A DNA stretch of 32,916 nt. Origin: an uncultured Pelosinus sp. Its GTDB lineage: Bacteria > Bacillota > Negativicutes > DSM-13327. The translations under genes and the position numbers were made by a program. Below are positions 18,317-24,119 of the stretch, piece by piece. The notes beneath the pieces are model-generated. The model searched no databases, was not told the DNA's origin, and saw nothing but the letters and a program-made list of their open reading frames with translations. Within the stretch, counting starts at the first letter, position 1. Each line of letters starts with the position of its first letter. The stretch is from contig CAMKSY010000006.1 of the NCBI GenBank assembly GCA_946415545.1, positions 1-32,916 of the forward strand. Direction: 5' to 3'.

Positions 18317-18610
18317 CTACCTTCGAACCGGCTCCCATACGAAGGACTGCATGATCAGCTTTATCGCATCACAAAATCCTTGATTATAATAGATTTCTCC
18401 TGCAATGGTTTCTTTCTCCGTAAAGTTCTCCTGCATTTTGTCCACAATTTCAATGCCCTCTTTTGATAGGATCTCCAATAACCTTTTTTTCAATTGATCA
18501 TTTGCCTGCTCTGCCTGATAATACCCTTCAGAAACGTTTTCTAAGCATATTAGTTCTTCTGCATCATGCACGTGTCTTAACCCTCGCGTAGCCGTTTCAA
18601 AAATCCTCAT
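18317..18610 (-). CDS. Small hypothetical protein
   Basis: 97 residues, mostly helical and acidic (LENVSEGYYQAEQANDQLKKRLLEIL ... YYNQGFCDAIKLIMQSF). I do not recognise a named family with certainty; small proteins ending in a YxxGFxDAIxLI helix are common uncharacterised genes in Firmicutes. ATG 18608-18610 has AAAGGAG 8 nt upstream and is clearly better than a reading that begins 12 codons earlier. It is a single gene, convergent with the Crp gene, and its function is unknown. Confidence 0.68.
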   Translation of the reverse strand: MRIFETATRGLRHVHDAEELICLENVSEGYYQAEQANDQLKKRLLEILSKEGIEIVDKMQENFTEKETIAGEIYYNQGFCDAIKLIMQSFVWEPVRR

Positions 18611-18713
18611 CGCAGAAACTCCTTTGCAGTAAGGTACAACTTGCAATGATTGAATATCATTTATATTCCCCCATTTTGGCTGTATGAAGATACAACAGCT
18701 TTTTTAATGGGGA

Positions 18714-18756
18714 AATTAAAAAGCGCATGCCAGGTTTATTAACCTACACATGCGCT
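18714..18756 (-). terminator. Intrinsic terminator of the minus-strand small RNA
   Basis: An 8-bp stem AGCGCATG/CATGCGCT (18722-18729 with 18749-18756) with an inner 5-bp stem AGGTT/AACCT (18732-18736 with 18741-18745), followed on minus by TTTTTAATTT. No protein gene lies directly upstream on that strand, which implies a non-coding transcript. Confidence 0.78.
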
Positions 18757-18952: not shown

Positions 18953-18981
18953 TTGTAATCAAGAAATGTTCACGGTATAAT
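18953..18981 (+). promoter_or_regulatory. Promoter of the plus-strand small RNA
   Basis: TTGTAA (18953-18958), 17-nt spacer, TATAAT (18976-18981). The start would be near 18988, exactly at the base of the folded RNA. The -35 bases read on the other strand (TTACAA) could serve as -35 of the minus-strand RNA. Confidence 0.62.
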
Positions 18982-18987
18982 AAATCT

Positions 18988-19083
18988 GTCGTCGTGGACA
19001 GTTTAGCTGTTACGTGTAGGTGCCCATACACCTGCTCGTGCCTAGGAGTGGTGAGACACTCTTAGGACACGGCGACTTTTTAA
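18988..19083 (+). ncRNA. Candidate small RNA or orphan riboswitch, multi-branched, with terminator
   Basis: A closing 9-bp helix GTCGTCGTG/CACGGCGAC (18988-18996 with 19069-19077, one G-U pair) encloses three hairpins: ACAG/CTGT, GTAGGTG/CACCTGC and CCTAGGAGTG/CACTCTTAGG. It ends in TTTTT, so the whole about 95-nt element has its own promoter and terminator. It does not match the cobalamin, lysine, c-di-GMP, NiCo or guanidine aptamer consensus as I recall them. The next gene (19316) is 230 nt away behind its own promoter, so an independent small RNA is more likely than a riboswitch. Confidence 0.55.
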
Positions 19084-19255
19084 TTTCCACCTATTACTAA
19101 TTATAGTACTTTTTATTGGGATTGCAAGAAAAATAGTACGCAGGCTTGTGATGGCACCTGCTCCTTCGTTTGTACTGATTGGCACCGGAAATTTTTAAGT
19201 TTTCATAGGATATTCATTTCTCCGACTTTCCAGCAATTTGTGTGAAATATCCTCA

Positions 19256-19315: not shown

Positions 19316-19540
19316 ATGGAAAAGATCTTGCAGCAACTACTGGAAGGGCAAAATAAACTATTTGAGAATCAGGATGAGATTAGTAAAAGACTTGATCTGA
19401 TCGAACAAACGATACTAGCTAACAATGATCGTTTCAATAATATCAATAGCAAACTCGCAGAAAATACAAGGTTTATCTCTGCCCTATCTCAAGATGTCGC
19501 AAGAACAGCAGCAAAGGATTCGATAGCTGGGCTTCACTAA
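19316..19540 (+). CDS. Small coiled-coil protein
   Basis: 74 residues, rich in Q, N, L and E with heptad-like spacing (ILQQLLEGQNKLFENQDEISKRLDLIEQTIL), predicted to be one long coiled coil with a polar tail. There are no membrane segments, cysteines or catalytic motif. GGGAGGT lies 6 nt before the ATG, and a promoter and terminator bracket it, so it is an independent real gene. Similar short coiled-coil proteins are common in Firmicutes, often near mobile or defence loci; the function is unknown. It lies between the small-RNA region and the distal end of the CRISPR array. Confidence 0.7.
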   Translation: MEKILQQLLEGQNKLFENQDEISKRLDLIEQTILANNDRFNNINSKLAENTRFISALSQDVARTAAKDSIAGLH

Positions 19541-19811: not shown

Positions 19812-22652
19812 ATTTCAATACATCTAATGTGTTAGTTACTCGTACCAATATAGCCTTTGTACCAGACGCTACTAAATTTCAATACATCTAATGTGTTAGT
19901 CACTCTGTCAGAGCCATCCGGCAAACTGCCATCTTGCACTTATTTCAATACATCTAATGTGTTAGTTACTCGCTACAGCCGGAGGCAACCCAATTCAAAG
20001 AAACAGATTTCAATACATCTAATGTGTTAGTTACTCAAAACCATACTTACGTAGACGAGCTGCCACACTCTCATTTCAATACATCTAATGTGTTAGTTAC
20101 TCTAAATCTCTTCTGCATGTTCCTTGCTGGCATTCTAATTTCAATACATCTAATGTGTTAGTTACTCTTCTCTCTTGGTAACCTCTTGGTGCGGAGCGAT
20201 ACATTTCAATACATCTAATGTGTTAGTTACTCCCTGTCTCATTGCTTCTTCAATATCAGTGATCATTATTTAAATACATCTAATGTGTTAGTTACTCAGT
20301 TGCGATATTGAGCCATGTAGTGGTGGTCATCCATTTCAATACATCTAATGTGTTAGTTACTCTATTTTTAACGCCTCTTATATTGTTCCAACTGGCAAAT
20401 TTCAATACATCTAATGTGTTAGTTACTCAACGGATAAAGTATTTTCCAGTTTTTATGGATTTAATTTCAATACATCTAATGTGTTAGTTACTCGAAAGTA
20501 AAGATGATTTACAAAGAAACCTGACGTTATTTCAATACATCTAATGTGTTAGTTACTCAGCACGACATTGCAACGAAACAGAGAATTGATGCCGATTTCA
20601 ATACATCTAATGTATTAGTTACTCGACAGGCGTATAGAAGAACATCGTCTGGAATATGGATTTCAATACATCTAATGTGTTAGTTACTCACAATTAGATT
20701 CTATAGGCCTACATATGTTGCTATATTTCAATACATCTAATGTGTTAGTTACTCGTAGTATCTACGTTTCTACCAGACCATAATAGCCAATTTCAATACA
20801 TCTAATGTGTTAGTTACTCGTATGATCCTTGGCGTGTAAACTGTGGTATGTCTCATTTCAATACATCTAATGTGTTAGTTACTCCACGCCACCTATGTTA
20901 CCGATTATGTATAGTTATAGATTTCAATACATCTAATGTGTTAGTTACTCGAACGTTTAAATGCTTTGCTTGCTGCCAACTTCCTATTTCAATACATCTA
21001 ATGTGTTAGTTACTCAGTGCTTCCTCGCAAAATTCTTCATCTAGATAATCTATTTCAATACATCTAATGTGTTAGTTACTCAATTCATCATGATCGATTG
21101 GGTAGCAGGTTGCGGTATTTCAATACATCTAATGTGTTAGTTACTCCTAAATTATCAACCTTAGACTGGCAAGGTGTGCATATTTCAATACATCTAATGT
21201 GTTAGTTACTCTTGCCTACCGTTGTACCGTGTGGCATACCATCATATATTTCAATACATCTAATGTGTTAGTTACTCGCGACATTCTAATCGTTATATCG
21301 AGCATTTTAATATCATTTCAATACATCTAATGTGTTAGTTACTCTTTGGAAGCCGTAGCAACAGTTAAAGAGTGTATCAAATTTCAATACATCTAATGTG
21401 TTAGTTACTCTGAACCATGATATTAGGCTTTTCTATCTCAAACAAAATTTCAATACATCTAATGTGTTAGTTACTCGCAAGTCTTGCCGGAAGTGTGGAC
21501 AAGAGATCGTATTTCAATACATCTAATGTGTTAGTTACTCATAAATTTCCTCCATCCTAGAACATCGTTAATCTGTATTTCAATACATCTAATGTGTTAG
21601 TTACTCGCTGGAAATTTAAGACGTTGGGCTGATGCCCTAGCAAATTTCAATACATCTAATGTGTTAGTTACTCGAAAAAGTATAACCTTTATTGTAGGTG
21701 ATAAATCAATTTCAATACATCTAATGTGTTAGTTACTCGAGCGGTACAGATAGAATGGCAGCTTATGCGAATGAATTTCAATACATCTAATGTGTTAGTT
21801 ACTCCAAGATCTACCACCGCAAATTCACAGAATTAGCAAATTTCAATACATCTAATGTGTTAGTTACTCTAGAACGAATGGGTAAGATCCTCGGACTGTT
21901 TAAATTTCAATACATCTAATGTGTTAGTTACTCAGGAATGGCCTTCGCTGGCACATTGAAAGTAGCTGAATTTCAATACATCTAATGTGTTAGTTACTCC
22001 AGGATCCGGCGGTAGTTCTGGCAATGTAATATAGATTTCAATACATCTAATGTGTTAGTTACTCCATGTATATCCCCCAACGATATAAGGAGGTGACATA
22101 ATTTCAATACATCTAATGTGTTAGTTACTCGTGCTAGCTTCATAATACTCGCACTACCGAAATTAATTTCAATACATCTAATGTGTTAGTTACTCGCGAA
22201 ATCTCTCCTTGGAGACTTTGGCGGGACATAATTTCAATACATCTAATGTGTTAGTTACTCTCTACTCCTTTACCTTTGTCTTGGTTTTTATCTAATTTCA
22301 ATACATCTAATGTGTTAGTTACTCGCAGACGCATTGAGGGCAACTGGTAGGCTATCCGAATTTCAATACATCTAATGTGTTAGTTACTCAAAATATTAAA
22401 ACCAACACCTTACCGCAAAGGATAATTTCAATACATCTAATGTGTTAGTTACTCCATGTTATCCAGCGACATTAAACAGCTTGTAAGCCGATTTCAATAC
22501 ATCTAATGTGTTAGTTACTCCCAATCAGCGCATTGAATTAATTGGCAGAATGTTTAAATTTCAATACATCTAATGTGTTAGTTACTCAATAAAACAGTAT
22601 CTGACTGGCTTCTAAATTACCAATTTCAATACATCTAATGTGTTAGTTACTC
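19812..22652 (-). CRISPR. CRISPR array 1, 44 repeats, type I-B
   Basis: Forty-four 30-bp repeats and 43 spacers of about 34-37 nt. In crRNA orientation (minus strand) the repeat begins GAGTAACTAAC and ends GATGTATTGAAAT; the ATTGAAAT end is the usual 8-nt 5' handle of type I-B crRNAs. The array therefore runs from the cas2 side (22652) towards 19812. Most repeats are identical; single-base variants are at 19876 (C for T), 20268 (A for C) and 20595 (A for G). Beyond the last repeat, 19757-19782 contains a fragment like a decayed repeat (CAATACAT ... GTTAC). The internal ACAT-TAG-ATGT dyad gives the weak hairpin expected for Cas6 processing. Confidence 0.98.
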
Positions 22653-22830
22653 CAAGGAAAATACTGCATTTGTCACAAGTCTATTTGCCTATAAATCCAG
22701 CATCTACAAGGGTTTCCCCAGTATTTTTCCAAGCTAAGCAGAGTTATATTACAGTTTATAATTAATGTCTCGCGACCTCTTTATTTATATGGCTTTCGCC
22801 ATCCTTATCCGCAAAACCTGCTTGGAAAAA
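22653..22830 (-). promoter_or_regulatory. CRISPR leader of array 1
   Basis: About 180 AT-rich bases between the first repeat (leader end, 22652) and the end of cas2. It should hold the pre-crRNA promoter and the integration signals for Cas1-Cas2, though no convincing promoter pair was found. Visible structure: an inverted repeat ATTTTTCCAAGC (22723-22734) with GCTTGGAAAAAT (22820-22831), an imperfect inverted pair GGAAAATACTG (22656-22666) with CAGTATTTTTCC (22719-22730), and a short hairpin with a GAAA tetraloop (22789-22802, read on minus). Confidence 0.65.
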
Positions 22831-23115
22831 TTAAAGGATAAGCGACTCGGTTTGTTTATGATCGGTTCCGAGAACCTCTTCGCTAAAGTCGGCCTTGCTC
22901 TTTAACTTTACGAGAGTAATAAAATCTTCATCCTTTACAATAATTTTGGCAAGTTCATTTTTTAATGCAATCAAATTAGCAGGAGTGATATGTCCTCGGA
23001 ATACTGACTTCTGATGATGCTTAAAATACTTTTTGCAAACCTTAAAAACTTTCTGTACCCTCTTTTCACCTATATCATAAAAAATGAATGCATAATTATA
23101 GTTAACATTACTCAT
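22831..23115 (-). CDS. cas2: CRISPR-associated endonuclease Cas2
   Basis: 94 residues, standard Cas2 size. The ferredoxin-like fold begins with the strand YNYAFIFYDI, whose aspartate (about residue 14) is the conserved one at the end of the first strand, followed by KRVQKVFKVCKKYFKHHQKSVFRGHI, the usual second region. Cas2 dimers bridge two Cas1 dimers in the spacer-integration complex. The ATG overlaps the cas1 stop (ATGA), with GGAGG 7 nt upstream, so it is translationally coupled. It is the last gene of the operon and abuts the CRISPR leader. Confidence 0.95.
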   Translation of the reverse strand: MSNVNYNYAFIFYDIGEKRVQKVFKVCKKYFKHHQKSVFRGHITPANLIALKNELAKIIVKDEDFITLVKLKSKADFSEEVLGTDHKQTESLIL

Positions 23116-24119
23116 CCTTTGTCCTCCATATTAAAAAAAGCAATCGGTTTTTCTTCCATTAGATATTTGATCAACTTATAACCATCTAGTCTTATGGTTT
23201 GTTTATATGAAACCTTTCGCCTAAGTTTACTATGTTCGAACACCCCGTTAATCCGTTCCTCGAATTCTGTAATAAACACTTTTCGTCCAGCATCATTAAG
23301 CAATGCATAATTTAATTTTTTGTCAAAATGTTTTGCTACACTTATTTTTCTATTGTTTACACAATCAAAAATAGTTTTGTATACCAAAATTGGCTTAAAT
23401 GCCTCTGATAAGTCTAAACTTAAAGAATAGCGCCGTTCCATTGGCTCATGTAGATACGAGATCGTTTGATTCAAATGAGTATGGTAAAGTTGTGTCAGCG
23501 TTTTTGTATACAATAGCGTATTACCAAAAGACACCAACGCATTCATTGGATTGTCAGGAGGACGCCTTACTCTTTTATTCATCGCAAATTCTTCCGGCAA
23601 GATGAGCTTAAAAGTTGCATAAAACCTGGCCCAAATTTCGCCTTCCAAGCTTAGCAAATTCTTGATAGCGCTGATGCGCAGTAATACATCAGGGACATCC
23701 TTCTTTAACCAATCCAGGAACGGTTTTAGCTCGCTCTTACCATGCCTGTAATAATGATATAGAACAGAATGAATGTTTAAGGAAATTGCTTTTACAATAG
23801 CTTTCGCAATGGTCAAACGTTTTTCCTGATTATCATAGGCTAATGCTTGTGAAACGGTCAGCCTGCCGCTAAGCAGATAATCTTTGGGATAGAACGTTCC
23901 CACATAGTTTTCATAGTAGCCAAAAAAATGCACTACAATTCCAGATTTTGATAATATTTCTAATAATTTTGTACTTAACGTGATGTCATTAAAGCAATAT
24001 AATTCTTTTGTATCTTTAATCGGTAGATAAATATTGCCACGCTCACCACGAAAACAAATTGAAAAATCTTTGCGGCTTAAATCACCCTTAGAAAAAATAT
24101 AGCGTGTCTCTTCTTTCAT
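23112..24119 (-). CDS. cas1: CRISPR-associated endonuclease/integrase Cas1 (type I-B)
   Basis: 335 residues. The N-terminal beta domain contains LVVHF-type strands (SGIVVHFFGYYENYVG), and the helical catalytic domain carries the metal ligands: E159 in SLEGEIWARFY, H224 in SYLHEP, and D236/E239 in SLSLDLSEAFKP. Together with Cas2 it cuts and inserts new spacers at the leader end of the array. Length and motifs are those of an active type I-B Cas1. It lies between cas4 and cas2 in the operon. Confidence 0.97.
   Translation of the reverse strand: MKEETRYIFSKGDLSRKDFSICFRGERGNIYLPIKDTKELYCFNDITLSTKLLEILSKSGIVVHFFGYYENYVGTFYPKDYLLSGRLTVSQALAYDNQEKRLTIAKAIVKAISLNIHSVLYHYYRHGKSELKPFLDWLKKDVPDVLLRISAIKNLLSLEGEIWARFYATFKLILPEEFAMNKRVRRPPDNPMNALVSFGNTLLYTKTLTQLYHTHLNQTISYLHEPMERRYSLSLDLSEAFKPILVYKTIFDCVNNRKISVAKHFDKKLNYALLNDAGRKVFITEFEERINGVFEHSKLRRKVSYKQTIRLDGYKLIKYLMEEKPIAFFNMEDKG

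Follow-up and report, generated by a model that had tools for sequence, protein, structure and literature searches.

The window analysed here, meaning the whole stretch of 32,916 nucleotides from an uncultured Pelosinus sp. (contig CAMKSY010000006.1), carries a structured small RNA on the plus strand at 18988..19083 and, reading in the opposite direction across the same DNA, a predicted promoter, a long leader and a small gene (18317..18610; 97 aa) on the minus strand. A first-pass annotation, made from the sequence alone, had described the RNA as a compact multi-branched element of unknown class; it mentioned neither the minus-strand promoter, leader and gene that are paired with the RNA nor the presence of multiple copies of the element. 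Downstream of the small RNA lies a 74-aa ORF (19316-19540); its control by the RNA was considered and rejected, as this ORF or a homolog follows 3 of 75 copies (L001, which is the window copy, L158, and L175). Further along, a CRISPR-like array was observed at about 19857-24119, with repeats resembling ATTTCAATACATCTAATGTGTTAGTTACTC; after it, the minus strand carries ORFs of 94 and 335 aa that resemble cas2 and cas1, respectively.

Fold, promoter, and terminator of the small RNA

The 96 nt at 18988-19083 form three hairpins inside a 9-bp closing helix, which contains one G-U pair. When a 131-nt stretch around the small RNA was folded, the minimum free energy (MFE) was -52 kcal/mol and the centroid structure equalled the MFE structure. 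The fold had a z of -6.96, and none of 200 shuffled sequences folded equally well. Hairpin 2 (19012..19040) has the conserved arms ACGTGTAGGTG and CACCTGCTCGTG, which enclose a variable loop (loop A), and hairpin 3 (19040..19068) has a covarying stem enclosing a second variable loop (loop B; GTGAGA in the window copy). A sigma-70-type promoter (TTGTAA, 17 nt, TATAAT; 18953..18981) ends at 18981, 7 nt 5' of the RNA, with a predicted start at about 18988. At the other end, the closing helix leads straight into TTTTT; a simple terminator scan with a loop limit of 8 nt missed this terminator. No ORF of at least 50 aa in the window's ORF list overlapped the element. Thus, the closing helix with three hairpins, the promoter, the intrinsic terminator, and the lack of a protein frame described in the first-pass annotation were all borne out. 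The three CGTG copies and the one CACG to which it drew attention are also present, but one fold dominates, and the alternative folds that it considered possible are not supported as important, since the centroid equals the MFE structure.

The annotation had found no fit to known riboswitches and had named a known Rfam family as the outcome that would speak against its reading. Rfam 15 gave no match to the small RNA at gathering score, in agreement with the annotation, and the reading of the element as a riboswitch or another known RNA was rejected on this ground. The only gathering-score match in the window was a cobalamin riboswitch elsewhere (RF00174 at 956-1137 on the minus strand, 100 bits). 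A relaxed search (E up to 10) gave four chance-level matches with E of 2.3-9.4, two of which overlap the element.

Distribution and conservation of the element

When 60 genomes, the window's own included, were searched with blastn, strong copies (best E ≤1e-12) were found in 20, including all 7 other genomes of the window's genus; 30 genomes were tallied, and the other 10 had chance-level matches only (E ≥0.05). Of 78 blast matches taken as a first set of copies, three short opposite-strand ones were left out and 75 were kept. A covariance model built from 65 of these 75 copies matched 30 of 300 genomes of the class, where at most 12 candidates were scored per genome and some matches were the same place on the other strand; among the matches listed, there were up to about a dozen copies per genome. 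Across the phylum, 3 of 398 sampled genomes matched, namely the window's own and two that belong to a single other genus. Named genomes, scanned with a sequence pattern, yielded 90 stretches, with Pelosinus, Sporomusa, Propionispira, Propionispora, Massilibacillus, Anaerospora, and some unnamed MAGs represented, and stretches were found outside the class in Desulfosporosinus. The window's own genome, a draft that is about 85% complete, has one copy.

Altogether, 163 copies of the cassette (hereafter, modules) were collected from Pelosinus, Sporomusa, Propionispira, and other Negativicutes, plus Desulfosporosinus. For this purpose, 195 raw elements were reduced to 140 by collapsing identical context; 23 were then added and 18 collapsed as duplicates. 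Partial blastn matches were taken into the set only in part, and L352 (~6910) stands outside the counts though its loops differ from the other G074 loops. No match to the element was found in 72,556 plasmid records or in a phage collection, and a phage or plasmid origin was rejected accordingly. A 14-base pattern scan of a viral collection gave 120 stretches, and blastn of those collected showed the element in none; L348, the only 21-base pattern match in that collection, is a contig with the same SymE-type module as L218.

In the aligned copies of the small RNA, 97.5% of 2201 base-pair cells form standard pairs. Double changes were observed in 7 pairs, 6 of them in hairpin 3, versus 3.9 in shuffled alignments; this count was reached by 4 of 500 shuffles, and the covariation score by none of 500. 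Hairpins 1 and 2 and the closing helix are almost constant between copies, so the compensatory changes in homologs that the annotation had asked about were seen in one helix, that of hairpin 3. Read on the plus strand, G-U cells numbered 270 and A-C cells 37; three nearly invariant columns account for 192 of the 270 and one column for 27 of the 37, leaving 78 versus 10. As judged from the aligned sequences, the structured RNA is the plus strand. The small RNA is confirmed as a real structured element, and the RNA family, which Rfam lacks, is real and common within a few genera.

Promoter, leader, and gene on the opposite strand

Conservation extends about 40 nt beyond the element, which is explained by a second promoter in that stretch, encoded on the minus strand (TTGCAA, 16 nt, TATAAT; 19100..19127). 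Its predicted start, at about 19093, lies about 10 nt beyond the 3' end of the small RNA. Promoter positions were counted in 151 of the 163 modules, the flank being too short in 12. With at least 9 of 12 matches, the small-RNA promoter was present at its place in 93% of these modules and the minus-strand promoter at its position in 81%; every other 20-nt bin of the minus strand held a promoter in at most 8%, and no recurrent alternative minus-strand promoter was found between the small RNA and the gene in the 151 modules. Many Sporomusa copies, in which TAATAT or a similar sequence replaces TATAAT, were missed by a stricter search. In nearly all modules the small-RNA and minus-strand promoters are convergent, at a distance of about 120 bp, and we infer that both direct transcription.

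The minus-strand promoter site is lost to unrelated DNA in L163, L166, L243, L287, and L305. In the last three, the same foreign sequence replaces the -35 of this promoter, as if an insertion had silenced the modules; L163 and L166 (G004) both have one and the same unrelated sequence in its place.

In the predicted mRNA, a stretch exactly complementary to the small RNA is followed by an intrinsic terminator, then by a hairpin over the ribosome-binding site, and finally by the small gene. Within the complement, the segment CACCUACACGUAACAG (19007..19022, minus strand) is a candidate antiterminator. The terminator, GCGCAUGUGUAGGUUAAUAAACCUGGCAUGCGC-UUUUUAAUUUCCCC, also GCGCAUGUGUAGGU...ACCUnGCAUGCGC-UUUUUAAUUUCC (18709..18755, minus strand), lies between the antisense target and the gene; its 5' arm, AUGUGUAGGU (18751-18742, minus strand), matches the candidate antiterminator, and the arm is present in 155 of 163 modules. 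The hairpin AUUUCCCCAUU/AAUGGGGGAAU over the ribosome-binding site (18668..18716, minus strand) has 11 bp in the window, with -19.3 kcal/mol for the stretch folded. A short leader reading frame (ATG...TGA; 18607..18660, minus strand), read from the sequence, has a stop that overlaps the ATG of the gene, and translational coupling of the two is possible.

By this layout, with convergent predicted promoters at fixed positions, an antisense RNA is encoded opposite the mRNA leader. Because the RNA opposes the leader of the small gene, and because promoter, terminator, and hidden ribosome-binding site follow in the same order in nearly all copies, we assigned it as a cis-antisense RNA. The RNA still stands outside Rfam; the annotation's "unknown class" gives way to the cis-antisense RNA of a putative control cassette of the attenuation type.

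The sequence AATTTCC was seen by eye to be common to the stretches after both U-runs (19084-19092 on the plus strand and 18716-18709 on the minus strand). An antisense RNA extended beyond the U-run could therefore base-pair, through its tail, with the gene's GGGGGAAU ribosome-binding site.

Cargo genes

The gene behind the leader (hereafter, the cargo) was recognised in 141 of the 151 modules with enough flank and not in 10; in 12 of the 163 the flank was too short. About nine groups, with labels coined here from the sequences, were distinguished: DUF6809-like (34), SymE (24), LNQ-type (22), MYRTYRTT-type (21), NIRYLD-type (18), and the smaller IVTGQW-type (8), VYTPGKK-type (6), YFQLAAKV-type (6), and WYVCDG-type (2). 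The SymE alignment comprised 20 of the 24 members, leaving out L211 (Ns) and L212, L214, and L215 (long read-through into the leader), and 19 of the 20 scanned cargos matched PF08845 at E 0.01 or better, which makes this assignment firm. A further cargo alignment comprised 26 of 27 sequences. One NIRYLD-type cargo had no ORF reference.

The window cargo had no match to the SymE profile (PF08845), and SymE occurs only in other copies. It is a distant relative of DUF6809 (PF20648; 16.1 bits, E 0.021, below the Pfam cut-off of 27) and aligns with the DUF6809-like group, with which it has the C-terminal motif Y-x-x-G-F-x-D in common. The corresponding alignment of 35 relatives consisted of 30 of the 34 DUF6809-like and 5 of the 22 LNQ-type proteins (the C-termini of L157 and L158 were cut short), and 25 of the 35 matched DUF6809 at E 0.01 or better. 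LNQ-type proteins have most of the motif, and the two groups may belong to the same superfamily. The window cargo was modelled as a mostly helical protein (structure prediction all-helical, mean pLDDT 83, pTM 0.56), and a fold search with this model gave 4 matches, none of them a convincing PDB match (best E 5.8). PADLOC gave no match for six cargo proteins, and PHROGs matches to the cargo were weak and without function. In Pfam no cargo family matched Rep, and all cargos are small proteins.

The 24 of 163 modules with SymE homology hint at growth-inhibiting cargo, and our confidence that the cargo as a whole would be toxic is low to moderate. If the common control is true, uncharacterised small-protein families (DUF6809 and others) would be tied to SymE by it, which would make them candidate toxins or stress effectors. 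No paper on DUF6809 was found in the open-access literature.

Predicted competing pairing in the leader and proposed mechanism

The 5' arm of the leader terminator repeats 8 nt of hairpin 2 of the small RNA (GUGUAGGU); hence, the leader's complement of hairpin 2 (CACCUACACGU), which lies exactly where the small RNA would cover it, can pair with the arm. This duplex had a mean energy of -14.2 kcal/mol, versus -9.3 with a shuffled complement and -8.0 with the intervening leader, and in 139 of 155 modules no more than 2 of 50 shuffled versions matched the real duplex. In transcripts ending before the 3' arm of the terminator, the 5' arm was predicted to pair with the complement region (P >0.5) in 67 of 75 modules. 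The effect was modest in the larger set, where truncated transcripts gave a P of 0.73 (121 of 155 above 0.5) versus 0.56 (99 of 155) when the complement was block-shuffled. Equilibrium switching was looked for in the 75 modules and none was seen, as the completed leader always prefers the terminator: the probability of arm-terminator pairing was 0.78-1.00 in 75 of 75, with a mean of 0.89 with or without masking of the antisense target. Since the terminator wins at equilibrium, the switch would have to be kinetic, which is plausible from these folding models. The arm and its complement are nearly invariant among modules, and therefore covariation cannot test their pairing.

From these findings, we consider it likely that the small RNA is a cis-antisense RNA with its own promoter that represses its gene through transcription attenuation. 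That the RNA is antisense to the leader of the neighbouring small gene is stated with high confidence, and that it acts by attenuation with moderate confidence. The antisense RNA would target the 5' leader of the minus-strand small gene. Without bound antisense RNA, the CACCUACACGU segment would capture the 5' arm of the terminator (AUGUGUAGGU) as it emerges, RNA polymerase would read on, and the gene could be expressed. Antisense binding, which would probably start at the variable hairpin loops, would sequester the CACCUACACGU segment, so that the terminator would form and the gene would be off. The parts keep one and the same order throughout the copies collected, which speaks for this reading.

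The RNA could also act on the same leader through translation or mRNA stability, either by recruiting a nuclease or by keeping the hairpin over the ribosome-binding site closed. In the accessible part of PMC1891008, SymR of E. coli is described as acting on the stability and translation of symE mRNA; SymE is a cargo here, and pairing of the ribosome-binding site above 0.5 was predicted in 126 of 143 testable modules. However, about 315 nt lie between the end of the antisense target and the ribosome-binding site in the window, and the conserved intrinsic terminator in between would be needless for a pure translation mechanism; we therefore regard this explanation as rather unlikely. It is far less probable that RNA polymerases starting from the facing promoters, about 120 bp apart in nearly all modules, collide over the element while the small RNA itself does little, since collision requires no conserved, covarying structure in the RNA of one strand and no terminator arm in which, across nearly all modules, 8 nt of that RNA recur. 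Equally improbable is a trans-acting small RNA that uses its hypervariable, exposed loops as seeds for other genes and overlaps the leader incidentally, given that nearly all copies of the RNA come with the opposite promoter, the leader terminator, and a small gene, whichever cargo family is present.

Relation to known antisense systems

Plasmid copy control is the main setting in which antisense transcription attenuation is known, and in pIP501, which has the same layout as pT181, it acts on a plasmid replication gene. As far as the accessible part of PMC3753616 describes pT181, the present cassette resembles it in the antisense RNA opposite the leader, the terminator before the gene, the candidate arm-capturing segment, and the putative recognition through hairpin loops. 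It differs from pT181 and pIP501 in its many chromosomal copies, the lack of a plasmid match, and its cargo of small proteins, none of which is a recognised Rep; the controlled gene is not a plasmid replication initiator.

The collected modules also have the layout of type I toxin-antitoxin systems, in which a small-protein mRNA is opposed by an antisense RNA. As in SymE/SymR of E. coli, a SymE-family protein stands under an opposite-strand antisense RNA in 24 of 163 modules, whereas here a long, terminator-bearing leader separates target and gene and unrelated proteins are fronted as well. According to the accessible part of PMC3919570, Ibs/Sib and Zor/Orz are duplicated toxin loci whose antisense RNAs discriminate their targets by short variable regions, and thus provide a precedent for such paralogous RNAs; the antitoxin is reported there to pair with or overlap the mRNA of a single toxin family, whereas the present cassettes exchange their cargo and contain a putative attenuator. 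Neither the pT181-type nor the type I toxin-antitoxin label fits fully, because the target is not a Rep gene and because SymR, in the part of its report cited above, acts on stability and translation. A description of the family was not found in the open-access literature on SymE, antisense RNA, attenuation, small RNAs of Sporomusa and Pelosinus, and Ibs/Sib, which was accessible in part and leaves subscription papers mostly outside.

Cassette borders and loop variation

The repeated cassette is about 0.85 kb long. Between recent copies in the same genome, homology mostly runs from the far end of the cargo to about 10-155 nt past the element and then stops, with aligned lengths of about 520-920 bp; L301/L310 are an exception, with a further common stretch elsewhere. 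L163 and L166 (G004) have 2.85 kb in common at 98%, yet differ in cargo and loops, which is an apparent cargo exchange.

Loops A and B, of hairpins 2 and 3, are highly variable, whereas the stems are not. When both loops were taken together, cognate loop duplexes had a mean of -22.0 kcal/mol and non-cognate ones -5.8; since copies have different loops, each antisense RNA would act mostly on its own cassette. Paralogs differed by 32% in the loops versus 7.0% elsewhere (14 independent pairs, none with identical loops), and syntenic orthologs by 20% versus 5.2% (9 pairs, 2 identical). The expectation that loops would be stable in orthologs and variable only in paralogs thus had a mixed outcome, and because the loops also change fast between syntenic orthologs, selection for specificity and lack of constraint are not separable. 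Lack of constraint, and not selection for specificity, may underlie the variation; orthogonality would follow in either case. A count of YUNR (U-turn) motifs in the loops gave no consistent pattern.

The closest design analogue is the set of engineered orthogonal pT181 attenuators (PMC3753616, accessible part), in which recognition hairpins were varied on one chassis against cross-talk; those are synthetic, whereas the family described here occurs in nature and is putatively orthogonal. In that part of the report, loop changes alone do not set orthogonality in the synthetic variants, which counts against the simplest form of a loop-specificity claim. We judge the chances to be evenly balanced that the modules form a chromosomal family of mutually orthogonal antisense attenuators, in which one conserved chassis of promoter, leader, and antisense RNA spreads as a discrete unit, the loops are re-diversified after duplication and cross-silencing between copies is thereby avoided, and the cargo is swapped among unrelated small, perhaps toxic proteins. 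If so, up to about a dozen copies per genome with loops all different would provide a natural data set on antisense RNA specificity, which in the accessible literature has so far been approached with synthetic pT181 variants.

Among 391 same-genome pairs, both loops were identical in one, L293/L318; since both lie at contig ends, this pair is probably one locus seen twice. L167 and L169, by comparison, have identical stems and 99% identical leaders and differ in their loops.
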